64,000 nucleotides of DNA. It comes from Gillisia sp. Hel_I_86 (GTDB taxonomy: Bacteria > Bacteroidota > Bacteroidia > Flavobacteriales > Flavobacteriaceae). Shown here piece by piece: positions 31,575 through 58,544 of the stretch (positions are counted from its first letter, which is position 1; each line of letters begins with the position of its first letter). The notes under the pieces were generated by a model. It searched no databases. It saw only the letters and a list, made by a program, of their open reading frames with translations, and was not told the origin of the DNA. The stretch covers positions 1,550,001-1,614,000 of the forward strand of contig NZ_VISE01000001.1 of the NCBI RefSeq assembly GCF_007827275.1, written 5' to 3'. Made by a program: the position numbers and the translations under genes.

Positions 31575-31931
31575 GACGATCCCTACCATCATCTCAATTT
31601 CTTGTTCAGGGACCAGCAGTTATTTTTCATTTCAAATTATACGTTGGTATAATTGGAAACACCTACAAAAAGTGTCTTTTTTCTGGTTCGTTTTTTGGGA
31701 CAAGCAAAAAAATGAACGATCTTGAAAATTAAATAGGTCTTGATGGGCAAAAGGTATTGTTTTCAGATCCTTGGTATATCGGGAACAGCAGGACGACAAT
31801 TCCGCATCGTCACCCTGAACTTGTTTCAGGGTCTCATTTTAAGAGCAGCAATCAATATTAAATAGATGCTGAAACGAGTTCAGCATGACGGTTAAAGGAT
31901 GTAAGAATTACGAATATTGTAATTTAGCACG
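31575..31931. repeat. Composite repeat upstream of bioF
   Basis: Gene-free gap. A palindrome GGTTCGTTTTTT...AAAAAAATGAAC spans 31685-31717. About 90 bp later a double palindrome (CCCTGAAC-TTGTTTCAGGG, then GATGCTGAAACGAGTTCAGCATGACG) covers about 31803-31892. The same two elements recur in the same order and spacing at 34024-34190, upstream of bioA. Confidence 0.7.
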
Positions 31932-33092
31932 ATGCATAAATTCCCATTAAAATTAGAAAAAAGACTTGAAAATAGAAAGCAGCAAAATGCTTTTAGGGAA
32001 TTGGGCGATGACAATAATTTAATAGATTTTGCTTCTAACGACTATCTGGGATTTGCAGGAAATTCAGAATTGTTTTTTAAGAGCCAGCAAATTTTAGAGG
32101 AACAGGATATGCTTCTTAATGGCGCAACAGGTTCCAGATTGCTATCTGGAAATCATAAATTGTTTCCACTTGCCGAAAAACTGATCGCAGACATTCATAA
32201 TGCTGAAGGCGCCTTGATCTTTAATTCCGGTTATGATGCGAATATTGGATTTTTCTCGGCCATTCCCCAAAAAGGGGATTTCATTTTTTACGATGAATTG
32301 GTGCATGCTTCTATTCGGGATGGAATAAAAATGAGCAATGCAAAAGGCTATAAATTCAAGCACAATGATCTCGAAGATCTTCAAAAAAAGCTGAATTTAT
32401 TTACTTTGGAAGCAAATTCAGAAATGTATATAGTTACAGAGTCTGTATTTTCTATGGATGGCGATAGCCCGGACCTAACTGCATTAGCAAATTTTGCTGA
32501 GGAGGGAAATTATCATTTGGTGGTAGATGAAGCGCATGCAATTGGAGTGTATGGTGAAAAAGGAAAGGGGTTGGTACAGGAATTGGAATTGGAGAAAAAG
32601 GTGTTTGCCAGAATTGTCACTTTTGGCAAAGCACTTGGAATTCATGGTGCTGTAATTTTAGGGAGCGAATTGCTTATTCAGTATTTGGTGAATTTCTGTA
32701 GAAGTTTTATTTATACCACCGCACTTGCTCCACATTCGGTCGCATCAATTTTTACCGCATATCAATTTATGGAGAACATGGAATTTTCAGAAAATTCAAT
32801 ATTGATAGAACTTCATGAAAATATTCAATTTTTTAATGCTGAAGTAAACCGACTGGATCTTAAGAAGTCATTTATACCAAGCGATTCTGCCATACATTGT
32901 TGTATTGTTTCCGGGAATAGTGAGGTGAAAGAAATTGCGAATAAAATTCAGAAAAAAGGTTTTAATGTAAAGCCGATTTTAAGTCCCACGGTTCCAAAAG
33001 GGGCAGAGCGACTTCGGTTTTGTTTGCATAGCTTCAATTCCAAAGAAGAGATAAAGAGTCTTCTTGAACTATTGGCTACTTTTATAAAATGA
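31932..33092 (+). CDS. bioF: 8-amino-7-oxononanoate synthase (BioF-like aminotransferase)
   Basis: PLP enzyme condensing pimeloyl-thioester with alanine in biotin synthesis. 386 aa of the alpha-oxoamine synthase fold: FASNDYLGFA, NGATGSRLLSGNH, ALIFNSGYDANIG, VVDEAHAIGVYG, and PLP lysine Lys233 in TFGKALGIHGA. Other members of the fold (KBL, serine palmitoyltransferase) are similar, but the bioD/bioA/bioB neighbours support BioF. Its stop overlaps the ATG of a 56-aa ORF (ATGA). Confidence 0.93.
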   Translation: MHKFPLKLEKRLENRKQQNAFRELGDDNNLIDFASNDYLGFAGNSELFFKSQQILEEQDMLLNGATGSRLLSGNHKLFPLAEKLIADIHNAEGALIFNSGYDANIGFFSAIPQKGDFIFYDELVHASIRDGIKMSNAKGYKFKHNDLEDLQKKLNLFTLEANSEMYIVTESVFSMDGDSPDLTALANFAEEGNYHLVVDEAHAIGVYGEKGKGLVQELELEKKVFARIVTFGKALGIHGAVILGSELLIQYLVNFCRSFIYTTALAPHSVASIFTAYQFMENMEFSENSILIELHENIQFFNAEVNRLDLKKSFIPSDSAIHCCIVSGNSEVKEIANKIQKKGFNVKPILSPTVPKGAERLRFCLHSFNSKEEIKSLLELLATFIK

Positions 33093-33259
33093 AAGAAACC
33101 TTCTCTAAAATAGCGGTATTTCAATACTCTTTAGGAGTGCAAATAATTAAATCTATGTTCTTTTTTCTGGTTTCATTTTTAACTACGGCCTTGCCAATTT
33201 ATACACGTTACGAATACAGGTGCGAAACCTGTAAACAAAAATTTAATTTCAATGAATAA
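33089..33259 (+). CDS. Small membrane protein with CxxC motif, inside the biotin operon
   Basis: A 56-aa ORF fills the otherwise unexplained 159-bp gap between bioF and bioD. Its ATG overlaps the bioF stop (ATGA) and its stop lies 8 bp inside bioD. The protein has a hydrophobic segment at about 23-38 (SMFFFLVSFLTTALPIY), then a Cys-x-x-Cys tail (YRCETCKQKFNFN), like a membrane-anchored half zinc ribbon. The double overlap favours a real, translationally coupled gene. I do not recognise the family. The alternative is a chance ORF, but an unbroken frame exactly bridging two operon genes in AT-rich DNA is not trivial. Confidence 0.6.
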   Translation: MKETFSKIAVFQYSLGVQIIKSMFFFLVSFLTTALPIYTRYEYRCETCKQKFNFNE

Positions 33260-33878
33260 CACTTATTTTATAACCGGGATTGGGACAGATGTGGGTAAAA
33301 CTATTGCCGCAGCCATTATTACTGAATCTTTAAAAGCAGACTATTGGAAGCCAATTCAGGCAGGAGATTTGGAGAATAGCGATTCTATGAAGCTGGAAAA
33401 TCTTATTTCCAATGAAGAAAGCTTTGTTTACCCTGAAGGAGTTAAACTGAAATCGGCAATGAGCCCGCATGCGGCGGCAGAATTGGATGGAGTTAAGCTA
33501 ATTGCTAAAAAGATCCAACGCCCAGACACTTCTAAAGATCTTGTTATAGAAGGAGCTGGCGGATTATTAGTGCCAATAAATTCAAAAGAAACCATAGCAA
33601 ATTTAATTCTGCCTACAGATAAGGTCATTCTGGTTTCCAAGCATTATTTGGGTAGTATTAACCACACCTTACTTAGCATTGAAGTCCTAAAAAGTAAAGG
33701 ATTCAGCATTGCCGGCATCCTATTTAATGGTGATGAAAACAAGACTACTGAAAAAGTGGTTTTGGAAATGACTGGAATTAAATTCATTGGAAGAATAGAT
33801 AAGGAGCCATATTTCGATAGAAATGTGATCAAGGAATATGCAGATCGTTTTCGGGATCAACTTCAGGTCCTTAAATAA
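33252..33878 (+). CDS. bioD: Dethiobiotin synthetase
   Basis: ATP-dependent carboxylase closing the ureido ring of dethiobiotin. 208 aa. P-loop GTDVGKT at residues 11-17, substrate loop KPIQAGD near 36 and VIEGAGGLLVPIN near 98 are all present. Its ATG lies inside the 3' end of the 56-aa ORF. It is separated from bioA by repeats. Confidence 0.96.
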   Translation: MNNTYFITGIGTDVGKTIAAAIITESLKADYWKPIQAGDLENSDSMKLENLISNEESFVYPEGVKLKSAMSPHAAAELDGVKLIAKKIQRPDTSKDLVIEGAGGLLVPINSKETIANLILPTDKVILVSKHYLGSINHTLLSIEVLKSKGFSIAGILFNGDENKTTEKVVLEMTGIKFIGRIDKEPYFDRNVIKEYADRFRDQLQVLK

Positions 33879-34243
33879 TAATTAGGTTCACAGAGGTCTC
33901 GACTTCGCGCGACCAGACGACGTACGGTCCCCTTGAGATCCGTGATAAAAAATTTTACCTAACGTAGGAAATTGACATATTGTGATTCCTTGCAAATTTA
34001 TTTTCTTAAGAACTCCTTTTTTTGGTTCGTTTTTTTGGACAAGCAAAAAAATGAACAATGATAAAGATTACATGAAGCTTTATCGACCAAAGGGAGTGTT
34101 TTGTGTATCTTTAAAATACGTCAATGATAACTTGTTTCAGGGTCTCATCCCCACGTAAATGGGATGCTGAATCGAGTTCAGCATGACGAAAATGAGTTGG
34201 GTGAAAACCTAGATAACAAAAAAATAAATTCAGAAGAAATAGT
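33879..34243. repeat. Composite repeat between bioD and bioA
   Basis: Gene-free gap. A GATCCGTGATAAAAAATT...ACGTAGGAAATTGACATA module lies at 33930-33978 and is related to 37613-37660 and 49695-49740. It is followed by the GGTTCGTTTTTTT...AAAAAAATGAAC palindrome (34024-34056) and the GTTTCAGGGTCTCAT / GATGCTGAATCGAGTTCAGC pair (34130-34190). The order matches the gap upstream of bioF. Confidence 0.7.
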
Positions 34244-35509
34244 ATGACATTATCCAATAGAGACAAAAAACATCTTTGGCATCCCTTAACCCAACATAAA
34301 ACTTCTCCAGACACACTTGCAATTGTGAAAGCGAAAGGAGCGAAACTTTGGGATGAAAATGGGAAAGAATATATAGATGGGATTTCCAGTTGGTATACCG
34401 CTATGTATGGACATTGCAACCCTTACATTACCCATAAGGTGGCAGCGCAAATGCAGCAACTGGACCAGGTGGTTTTTAGCGGATTTACACATGAACCCGC
34501 AATTCAACTTTCTGAAGAGTTGATAAAAATCTTACCAGCGAACCAAGAAAAATTGTTTTTTAGCGATAATGGCTCTACTGCTACTGAAATTGGGATTAAA
34601 ATGGCTTTACAGTATCATTTTAATCTCGGGAACGACAAGAGAGTAATGTTGGCTTTTGAAGAAGGTTTTCATGGAGATACTTTTGGTGCGATGTCGGTTT
34701 CTGGGCTTTCGGTTTATAATGGTGCTTTCGAACATCATTTTTTGAAAGTGGTTCGCATTCCAACTCCAAATGGAAAAAACAATACCGAAGTCCTTCAGAA
34801 GTTAAAGCAATTAATAAAGGAGAACGCCATTGCAGGATTCATTTATGAGCCTTTAGTACAAGGCGCTGCGGGAATGAAAATGCATGATGTAGATGGCTTG
34901 AATGCGGTATTAAAAGTTTGTCAAAAAAATGGAATAATAACCGTTGCAGATGAGGTAATGACAGGGTTTGGCAAAACAGGAAAAAATTTCGCTTCAGAAT
35001 ATATGGACGAGCAGCCGGATATTATGTGCATGTCCAAAGCTTTAACGGCAGGATTGCTTCCTATGGCGATTACTTCTTGTTCACAAAAAATCTATGATGC
35101 ATTTTATTCTGAAGATATTGCAAAAGGCTTGTTCCATGGGCATACGTATACTGCAAATCCACTGGCTTGTACCGCTGCTTTGGCGGGAATAGAACTGTTG
35201 AATTCAGGAGAAATCCAGCAAAACATCCAGAAAGTAATACAATCGCATTCTGAATTTTTAAAAGAGATCAAAGTTCATCCAAAAGTGAGAAATCCCCGGC
35301 AATTGGGCGTTATCCTCGCTTTTGAACTGAATGTGGAAATGGAACGCTATGGGAATCTAAGAAATAAGCTTTTTCAGCATTTCATGGGAGATGGCGTGTT
35401 TCTAAGACCATTGGGAAATACCATTTATATCTTGCCGCCTTATGTTATTTCACAAGAAGAATTACGAAAAGTGTACAATTCAATATGCGCTGCACTAGAT
35501 ATATTTTAA
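34244..35509 (+). CDS. bioA: Adenosylmethionine--8-amino-7-oxononanoate aminotransferase
   Basis: PLP transaminase making 7,8-diaminopelargonate. 421 aa of the class III fold: HLWHPLTQ at the N-terminus, YIDGISSWYTAMYGH, FFSDNGSTATEIGIKMA, the metal-independent PLP site VADEVMTGFGKTG, and Lys265 in CMSKALTAGLLP. The Trp of SSWY that contacts substrate in BioA supports the assignment over other omega-transaminases. Followed by the SET gene after 59 bp. Confidence 0.95.
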   Translation: MTLSNRDKKHLWHPLTQHKTSPDTLAIVKAKGAKLWDENGKEYIDGISSWYTAMYGHCNPYITHKVAAQMQQLDQVVFSGFTHEPAIQLSEELIKILPANQEKLFFSDNGSTATEIGIKMALQYHFNLGNDKRVMLAFEEGFHGDTFGAMSVSGLSVYNGAFEHHFLKVVRIPTPNGKNNTEVLQKLKQLIKENAIAGFIYEPLVQGAAGMKMHDVDGLNAVLKVCQKNGIITVADEVMTGFGKTGKNFASEYMDEQPDIMCMSKALTAGLLPMAITSCSQKIYDAFYSEDIAKGLFHGHTYTANPLACTAALAGIELLNSGEIQQNIQKVIQSHSEFLKEIKVHPKVRNPRQLGVILAFELNVEMERYGNLRNKLFQHFMGDGVFLRPLGNTIYILPPYVISQEELRKVYNSICAALDIF

Positions 35510-35568: not shown

Positions 35569-36162
35569 ATGATACATCCAGACACCGAGGTTAAATTTAT
35601 AGGTAAAGAAATTGGTTACGGGATTGTAGCCACAAAATTAATTCCGGAAGGCACTATTACTTGGGTTCAGGATGAATTGGATCAAATTTATACTGCTGAG
35701 CAAATAGCCAACATGTTGCCGTTTACTCAGGAAATGATAGATAAATTTACCTTTAGAAATAACAAGGGAAATTTTGTGATGTGCTGGGATACCGCCAAAT
35801 ATGTGAATCATAGTTTTAATTCCAATTGCCTTTCCACCCCTTACGATTTTGAAATTGCCATTCGCGATATTCATCCGGGAGAAGAATTAACCGACGATTA
35901 TGGGTATTTAAATGTTACCGATGCCTTTAAAGCCAAAGATGAAGGGACTTCCAGAACCACTGTATATCCAGATGATTTGTTGAATTTTCATAAAGAATGG
36001 GATGCCAAATTATTGAATTCCTTTAGAAAAATAAAACAACTTCCTCAGCCTTTAAAAACCTTGCTTCCTCTAAATATCAGAAATATTGTAAATCAAATTC
36101 TTGCTGGGAAAAAGGAATTGGATTCTATTTTGAACCTTTATTATTCTGAAGATGTTAAGTAA
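35569..36162 (+). CDS. SET domain protein
   Basis: 197-aa cytoplasmic protein with a SET methyltransferase fold: GYGIVATKLIPEGTI near residue 16, NHSFNSNC at 80-87, and DDYG at 109-112, where the Tyr (111) sits at the catalytic position. The post-SET cysteines are missing. Small bacterial SET proteins may methylate protein lysines, but the target is unknown. It sits between bioA and a ketoacyl synthase, so an acyl-carrier or biotin-linked substrate is possible but purely inferred. Confidence 0.8.
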   Translation: MIHPDTEVKFIGKEIGYGIVATKLIPEGTITWVQDELDQIYTAEQIANMLPFTQEMIDKFTFRNNKGNFVMCWDTAKYVNHSFNSNCLSTPYDFEIAIRDIHPGEELTDDYGYLNVTDAFKAKDEGTSRTTVYPDDLLNFHKEWDAKLLNSFRKIKQLPQPLKTLLPLNIRNIVNQILAGKKELDSILNLYYSEDVK

Positions 36163-36248: not shown

Positions 36249-37403
36249 TTGAAAAATCCCGTTTATATAAACTCCATAGCCTCTATTTCTCCTTTGGGAA
36301 CTTCAAGGGAAGAGATCTGGAACAATTACAAAACCGATAAACATTTTATTTCCAAGCACGATTTTTCAGGAACTGAAGCCTTTGCTGCTTTTTTGTCCTC
36401 AGACTTAAAGGAGACATTAGCCAACTTAAGAAATTCTGATTCCAGATTTAAAGGCTTGGACAACTCAGTGTTATTTTCCATTTTCTCAGCCCGAAGCGCA
36501 TTTAAAAAAGCTGGCTGGGCAAAGAATAATTCCATCGGAATAAATATAGGAAGCTCCCGTGGTGCAACTCAGCTTTTTGAAAAGCATCATAAAGAATTTA
36601 TTGAAAACGGAAAAGTTGAGGTTTTGGCTTCCCCAAGTACAACTTTGGGAAATATTTCTTCATGGGTGGCGCAGGATCTACGTACTTCCGGCCCGGACAT
36701 TTCGCACAGCGTAACCTGTTCTACTGGCTTACATGCGGTTTTAAACGGTGTTGTTTGGCTTCAATCTGGATTTGCAGATAAGTTTATCGTCGGAGGGAGT
36801 GAGGCCGCTCTAACCCCTTTTACGATCGCACAGATGAACGCGATGAAGATCTATGCTTCAGAAGATTTGGATTTTCCTTGCCAAGCTCTCAATATGGAAA
36901 AGAAAAGGAATTCCATGGTTTTGGGGGAAGCAGCAGGCGTGGCTTGTATTTCTAATTCTGCTGAAAATAGTATTGCAAAGATTTCGGGGATTGGTTATGC
37001 CACCGAAGAGTTGAAACACCCGGTTTCTATTTCAGCAAACGGAACCTGTTTTCAAAAATCCATGAAAATGGCAATTGGCGAATTGGCATTGAGCGAAATT
37101 GATGCAGTTGTAATGCACGCGCCAGGAACGATTAAGGGAGATGAAGCGGAACTATATGCGATAAATGCCATTTTTGGCAAGGAGCTTCCGGCAATAACTT
37201 CCAATAAATGGAAGATTGGTCACACCTTTGGAGCTTCGGGGATTTTAAGTATGGAATTGGCAATTTTAATGCTTCAGCACGATGAGTTTGTACCGGTTCC
37301 ATTTTCAGCACTAAGTAAAGCACCAAAAAGATTAAAAAACATCCTTGTAAATGCCGTAGGTTTTGGAGGAAATGCGGTTTCAATATTAATCAATAATAGT
37401 TAA
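36249..37403 (+). CDS. Beta-ketoacyl-ACP synthase of the biotin locus
   Basis: 384-aa condensing enzyme. Catalytic triad Cys157 (SVTCSTGLHA), His290 (VVMHAPGTIKGDEAE) and His325 (SNKWKIGHTFGASG) shows a FabB/FabF-type Cys-His-His enzyme, not a FabH/BioZ type with Cys-His-Asn. It starts at TTG: an in-frame stop at 36234-36236 leaves no earlier ATG. Placed between bioA and bioB, it probably extends or condenses the pimelate precursor (inference). The usual bioC/bioH genes are absent from this window. A repeat-filled gap separates it from bioB. Confidence 0.85.
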   Translation: MKNPVYINSIASISPLGTSREEIWNNYKTDKHFISKHDFSGTEAFAAFLSSDLKETLANLRNSDSRFKGLDNSVLFSIFSARSAFKKAGWAKNNSIGINIGSSRGATQLFEKHHKEFIENGKVEVLASPSTTLGNISSWVAQDLRTSGPDISHSVTCSTGLHAVLNGVVWLQSGFADKFIVGGSEAALTPFTIAQMNAMKIYASEDLDFPCQALNMEKKRNSMVLGEAAGVACISNSAENSIAKISGIGYATEELKHPVSISANGTCFQKSMKMAIGELALSEIDAVVMHAPGTIKGDEAELYAINAIFGKELPAITSNKWKIGHTFGASGILSMELAILMLQHDEFVPVPFSALSKAPKRLKNILVNAVGFGGNAVSILINNS

Positions 37404-37808: not shown

Positions 37809-38900
37809 ATGACGATTAAACACGACTGGACCAAAGAAGAAATTCTTGAAATATACAACAAACCCTTTATGGACCTGCTTTACGAAGCAGCATCTGTGCA
37901 TAGGGGAAATCACGATCCAAATGTGGTTCAGGTTTCTACCTTGCTTTCCATAAAAACAGGAGGATGTCCCGAAGATTGTGGGTATTGCCCGCAAGCGGCA
38001 AGATATCACACAGCTATTGAAGGGAACGATCTTATGAGTGTAAACCAAGTGAAGGCTCAGGCTTTAAGAGCAAAAGCATCTGGGAGTTCCAGGGTTTGTA
38101 TGGGAGCGGCTTGGAGAAATGTGAAAGATGGGGAGGAATTCGATTCTGTTTTGGAAATGGTGAGGACCATCAATAAACTGGATATGGAAGTATGTTGCAC
38201 GTTGGGTATGATTACCGAAAATCAGGCACAACGATTGGCAGAAGCTGGCTTGTATGCATACAACCATAACTTGGATTCTTCAGAAGAATATTACAAAGAA
38301 GTGATCTCCACCAGAGGGTATCAGGATAGATTGGATACCATTGGAAATGTTAGAAAAACCCATGTTACGGTTTGTAGCGGAGGAATAATTGGAATGGGGG
38401 AATCCAACAACGATCGTGCAGGAATGCTGGTTGCTTTGGCCACTTTGAGTCCGCAGCCGGAATCTGTGCCCATCAACGCTTTGGTTCCCGTAGAAGGAAC
38501 GCCTTTAGAAGAGCAAGCACCGGTTTCTATTTGGGATATGGTAAGGATGGTGGCCACAACCAGAATTGTAATGCCAGAAACCCAGGTTAGACTTTCTGCA
38601 GGTAGAACACAAATGAGTAGAGAAGGCCAGGCCATGTGTTTCTTTGCAGGAGCAAATTCCATTTTTGCAGGAGACAAATTATTGACCACTCCAAACCCCG
38701 ATGTTGGTGAGGATATGGAAATGTTCAACGCTTTGGGCCTACAACCACAAAAACCATTTGTGAAAAAATCGCAACCTGAAAGTGTGGAAGCTACCGAATC
38801 TAAATTTCAGAACCTAGGTGAAAAACCAAAATGGTCCAGGCCAGGCCATAAAATTGAGAGAAACCTAGAAGCTCAAAAAAAATCCAAAACCAGTTCATAA
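37809..38900 (+). CDS. bioB: Biotin synthase
   Basis: Radical SAM enzyme inserting sulfur into dethiobiotin. 363 aa. Radical-SAM cluster cysteines 53, 57 and 60 in GGCPEDCGYC; the auxiliary [2Fe-2S] ligands are consistent with later motifs (RVCMGAAWR, EVCCTLGM, and Arg in VRLSAGR). The last 35 residues are a Lys-rich, low-complexity tail (KIERNLEAQKKSK) beyond the core. The next gene starts 17 bp later. Confidence 0.97.
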   Translation: MTIKHDWTKEEILEIYNKPFMDLLYEAASVHRGNHDPNVVQVSTLLSIKTGGCPEDCGYCPQAARYHTAIEGNDLMSVNQVKAQALRAKASGSSRVCMGAAWRNVKDGEEFDSVLEMVRTINKLDMEVCCTLGMITENQAQRLAEAGLYAYNHNLDSSEEYYKEVISTRGYQDRLDTIGNVRKTHVTVCSGGIIGMGESNNDRAGMLVALATLSPQPESVPINALVPVEGTPLEEQAPVSIWDMVRMVATTRIVMPETQVRLSAGRTQMSREGQAMCFFAGANSIFAGDKLLTTPNPDVGEDMEMFNALGLQPQKPFVKKSQPESVEATESKFQNLGEKPKWSRPGHKIERNLEAQKKSKTSS

Positions 38901-58328: not shown

Positions 58329-58544
58329 ATGAATTTTATTACTGTTTATAATAGCAATCAATCTTTTCAAATCGCCATTGTGAAGAATTTATTCGATAAT
58401 GAAAACATTAACTATAGGATTCCAGATGAATTTTTGGATAGTGCTGCTGGTATTGGGGGACTTGGAATTACCGGGATGAGAGTTCAAGTAATAGAAGAAG
58501 ATGGATATTTCGGTGGGACCAGGCCACTGATTTCGGTCAAATAG
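58329..58544 (+). CDS. DUF2007-like small protein
   Basis: 71 aa: FITVYNSNQSFQIAIVKNLFDNENINYRIPDE is the typical start of the DUF2007 (putative signal-transducing) family. The fold would be a ferredoxin-like alpha/beta. No cysteine or metal motif. The insertion element begins 36 bp after its stop. Confidence 0.75.
   Translation: MNFITVYNSNQSFQIAIVKNLFDNENINYRIPDEFLDSAAGIGGLGITGMRVQVIEEDGYFGGTRPLISVK

Follow-up and report, generated by a model that had tools for sequence, protein, structure and literature searches.

The window (the whole 64,000-nucleotide stretch analysed here) belongs to a genome of 4.25 Mb, present as one contig, whose named close relatives are Gillisia species. Family models identified genes of a biotin operon in it, including bioF, bioD and bioA, with bioB lying further downstream at position 37809. 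Between bioF and bioD sits an ORF whose predicted product is 56 amino acids long. The features of this region are as follows.

31932–33092, + strand: bioF (8-amino-7-oxononanoate synthase), by family model; its stop codon overlaps the start of the ORF
33089–33259, + strand: 56-amino acid ORF, by sequence comparison with relatives very probably an in-frame, internally deleted remnant of a 138-amino acid DUF2007/zinc-ribbon gene
33089–33154, + strand: retained 5′ part, corresponding to codons 1–22 of the intact gene, with the private changes S15L, E16G and A17V
33146–33155, + strand: deletion junction; in relatives, either side of the missing 246 bp matches its sequence, ATTAAATCTA
33155–33256, + strand: retained 3′ part, corresponding to codons 105–138 of the intact gene, with a hydrophobic stretch and the second Cys knuckle, CETC
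33221–33232, + strand: codons for CETC (residues 45–48), one of the two members of the CPxC...CxxC set in the intact protein
33252–33878, + strand: bioD (dethiobiotin synthase), by family model; its first 8 nt overlap the 3′ end of the ORF
34244–35509, + strand: bioA, by family model; the next gene of the operon, in the same order in relatives

The ORF begins within an ATGA sequence (33089–33092), in which its start codon and the stop codon of bioF overlap, and ends with a TAA (33257–33259) located 8 nt inside bioD, the ATG of which is at 33252. Its product possesses a hydrophobic stretch of 19 amino acids, IIKSMFFFLVSFLTTALPI, averaging 1.87 on the Kyte-Doolittle scale, and a single CxxC, namely CETC at residues 45–48. 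The frame, its overlaps with both neighbours, the hydrophobic segment and the Cys-x-x-Cys motif had all been described in an initial annotation of this DNA and were seen again here. The ORF is open to a greater extent than expected by chance, with just 1.2% of shuffles leaving a 55-codon frame of the same composition open, because it descends from a longer conserved gene, whose two ends it joins; this ancestry rules out a chance ORF.

A number of other elements were noted within the operon. A 41-bp T-rich element, TTTTTTGGTTCGTTTTTTGGGACAAGCAAAAAAATGAACGA, lies before both bioF (31679–31719) and bioA (34018–34058), as does a REP-like element, TTGTTTCAGGGTCTCAT (31821–31837 and 34132–34148), and this intergenic pair recurs far above chance. 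The gap between bioD and bioA is much shorter in most close relatives. Between bioA and bioB are a gene for a SET-domain protein (35569–36162, + strand) and one for a divergent beta-ketoacyl synthase (36249–37403, + strand, TTG start as listed), which could belong to pimeloyl-chain synthesis.

When 99 related whole genomes were searched with the 56-amino acid product, each close relative gave two matches, to window residues 1–23 and 15–56, both within one longer open frame. In G. mitskevichiae, G. hiemivivida, Gillisia sp. CAL575 and the MAG LH_M84, this frame is a gene for a protein of 138 amino acids and occupies the interval from bioF to bioD. At all four loci it overlaps bioD by 8 nt, and its start overlaps or almost touches the end of bioF. 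As the relatives match in two pieces of a single 138-amino acid frame, a native 56-amino acid gene is ruled out. The comparison of related bioF-bioD junctions proposed in the initial annotation did find the ends of the frame and the CxxC conserved, but as parts of a gene that is 82 codons longer.

The intact protein possesses a DUF2007 domain (PF09413), a CPxC at residues 85–88, a hydrophobic stretch at approximately 101–119 and a CxxC at 127–130. Three of the intact proteins score 26.6–29.0 bits for DUF2007 over residues 6–71 or 12–71, the curated cut-off being 25.7 bits, and none of the four Cys residues of the two knuckles varies among the 36 intact relatives compared. Pfam describes DUF2007 as a putative prokaryotic signal transducing protein. 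An AlphaFold model built from a five-row alignment gives the order E-H-E-E-E-H of strands and helices over residues 7–71; its confidence is low (mean pLDDT 52.7) and it contains no trustworthy zinc site or membrane topology. No convincing solved relative was found in the PDB by sequence (best E-value 3.9), and of the four papers found to mention DUF2007, none has a title or abstract dealing with this gene. From its anatomy, one might guess that a membrane-associated zinc ribbon accompanies a DUF2007 domain that is sensor-like; the structural model is too weak to back this guess.

Compared with this protein, the window product consists of residues 1–22 and 105–138, with residues 23–104 (82 codons, 246 bp) missing in frame. 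The edges of the missing part lie exactly 246 bp apart in all four intact Gillisia copies and share short direct repeats resembling ATYAAATCTA. In G. mitskevichiae the left edge reads ATCAAATCTA and the right edge ATTAAATCTA, while the window keeps one copy, ATTAAATCTA at 33146–33155. Deletions between short repeats typically leave a single repeat copy at the junction, as seen here. No other copy of the deleted part was found anywhere in the genome, which rules out its relocation.

The window ORF has the same place, start, stop and overlaps as the bioF-bioD form of PF09413 in Flavobacteriaceae and is 86% identical to an intact Gillisia protein over the first 22 residues and 85% over the last 40. 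Since both ends, the location and the overlaps match those of intact orthologues, with a clean 246-bp gap, descent of the ORF from a DUF2007 gene is well indicated. Unlike the intact protein, however, it lacks 82 of the 138 residues, a stretch that takes in CPxC, the first Cys knuckle, and almost the entire DUF2007 domain. According to the low-confidence model, the retained 5′ part would comprise the opening strand of the domain together with a portion of helix one. By its content the ORF is neither a DUF2007 protein, because it gives no match to this domain (curated cut-off 25.7 bits), nor a complete zinc ribbon. A four-Cys zinc ribbon requires two knuckles, of which the ORF has the second only. 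It does show a weak match, below curated cut-offs, to the FmdB-type zinc ribbon (PF09723 Zn_ribbon_8, TIGR02605) over 13 residues around CETC, but in contrast to that zinc ribbon keeps one of the two knuckles.

Private to the window copy are five nonsynonymous changes (S15L, E16G, A17V, F28V and L54F) and two synonymous ones. E16 and A17, replaced by G and V in the window, are the same in every one of the 36 intact relatives. The synonymous/nonsynonymous comparison called for in the initial annotation gave 5:2 nonsynonymous to synonymous private changes in the window versus 6:20 pooled over five relatives (Fisher P 0.027, with few sites), but P becomes 0.13 when the adjacent codons 15–17 are treated as one event. 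These small numbers would fit relaxed constraint following loss of the gene's function.

The same junction is also altered in other members of the genus. In G. marina (L031) one additional T in a T run breaks the frame after approximately 33 codons, and the frame ends early at 62 amino acids; this extra T could be a homopolymer sequencing error. Another Gillisia (L074) has a larger deletion, what is left being the 3′ part of the gene, interrupted by stops, and in two more (L075 and L078) no recognisable trace of the gene was detected in the short gaps between bioF and bioD. The initial annotation had regarded related junctions with a lacking or broken frame as evidence against its proposal, and such junctions were found in part, being one with a frameshift, one with stops and two without the gene. 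All four of these Gillisia retain bioF, bioD and bioA. Because the junction is frameshifted, stop-ridden or empty in these members, the DUF2007 gene looks dispensable and decaying in Gillisia.

A second DUF2007 gene, which is stand-alone, was noted elsewhere in the window (58329–58544, + strand) and also looks broken. It follows its 72-amino acid relatives to approximately residue 58 (..VQVIEED) and then enters sequence beside an IS1595-type transposase gene (PF12760; 58645–59214, + strand). With this copy, damage extends to both of the genome's clear DUF2007 genes, and only a weak match at position 4003313 of its contig remains.

The distribution of the intact gene was examined in 249 genomes of the family, which yielded 50 strong matches (E < 1e-40) and 74 weaker ones (1e-34 to 1e-14), the latter being counted by position only. 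The order bioF - DUF2007 - bioD occurs at dozens of loci. In genomes having bioD, 92 of 98 matches are linked to it, lying directly upstream on the same strand in 32 of 32 strong and 60 of 66 weaker cases. Another 26 matches come from genomes in which bioD gave no match; none of the 23 of these genomes tested has a bioD above the TIGR00347 cut-off, and 18 of the 23 also lack bioB. At ten bio-free loci the neighbours, judged by eye, are diverse and include genes for GntR/MocR-like regulators, TonB-dependent-receptor-like and UmuC-like proteins. Conversely, 47 of the 141 genomes with bioD, that of the window included, have no match to the gene at E < 1e-14. So the DUF2007 gene travels with the biotin operon without being tied to it. 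A role as a dedicated biotin factor is not supported, as the gene persists in genomes that have no bioD and mostly no bioB either, and a third of the bioD genomes do not have it; the same findings speak against the membrane factor of biotin synthesis suggested initially. The idea of a coupled operon gene fared better, since a coupled gene between bioF and bioD is real in many Flavobacteriaceae, but that gene encodes the 138-amino acid protein and not the 56-amino acid product.

In a genus outside Gillisia (G139:C10:409675-410086), a DUF2007 gene adjacent to bioD was matched in two overlapping pieces with stops, and by its sequence looks like another frameshifted copy.

Taking these results together, the 56-amino acid ORF is very probably what remains of a biotin-operon DUF2007 and zinc-ribbon gene after an 82-codon in-frame deletion between direct repeats, and is probably functionless. 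Gene decay by deletion between short repeats is ordinary. In this case the deletion, probably by replication slippage, end joining or another short-homology event, removed almost all of DUF2007 along with the first Cys knuckle, while the ancestral start and stop codons and the overlap with each neighbouring gene survived. The remnant may still be translated, in which case it would at most pass ribosomes from bioF to bioD, and its product most likely has no protein function. What stands against decay is that the frame is still open with both overlaps intact, and that the nonsynonymous excess rests on few sites and weakens when codons 15–17 are merged. The proposal that the product is instead a functional small membrane protein whose CxxC serves as a metal or redox site can point to the open frame, the hydrophobic stretch, the kept CETC and a 3′ part that differs from relatives mostly at synonymous sites. 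It is nevertheless very unlikely to be correct, given that most of this synonymous divergence may predate the deletion, that invariant residues in the kept part have changed, and that nearly all of DUF2007 is deleted together with CPxC, the partner knuckle invariant in all 36 intact relatives. The CxxC noted in the initial annotation is half of a conserved four-Cys set.

Selection may alternatively keep the short ORF as a translational bridge, whereby ribosomes ending at 33259 restart at bioD (33252) and the protein itself is irrelevant. The deletion being a multiple of three and the preservation of the ATGA overlap with bioF and of the 8-nt overlap with bioD would agree with this, but we hold it to be doubtful, as chance alone would put one deletion in three in frame and bioD is intact despite the early end of the frame in G. 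marina and the stops in L074. It is more doubtful still that the deletion created a new minimal membrane peptide, translated to this day and kept for coupling bioF to bioD translation; were that so, it would mean that a coupled gene can lose its content until it serves only as a bridge for ribosomes. The deletion comes from a single strain and a single assembly, and short direct repeats flank the missing part, as might be expected of an assembly or sequencing artefact concealing an intact gene. This is extremely improbable, however, as the genome is one contig, the codons beside the junction also carry substitutions, and repeats of approximately 10 bp normally do not collapse in assembly.

A deletion remnant can present itself as a bridging ORF with good overlaps, which comparison with relatives reveals at once, and the reading as a decayed DUF2007 gene corrects what was a plausible microprotein call. 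The lasting interest lies in the DUF2007 zinc-ribbon gene itself, which is found directly before bioD in most of the sampled Flavobacteriaceae that have both and elsewhere persists where the biotin pathway is gone. Gillisia, in which it occurs intact, shortened, frameshifted or not at all, offers a natural set for probing the role of this gene.
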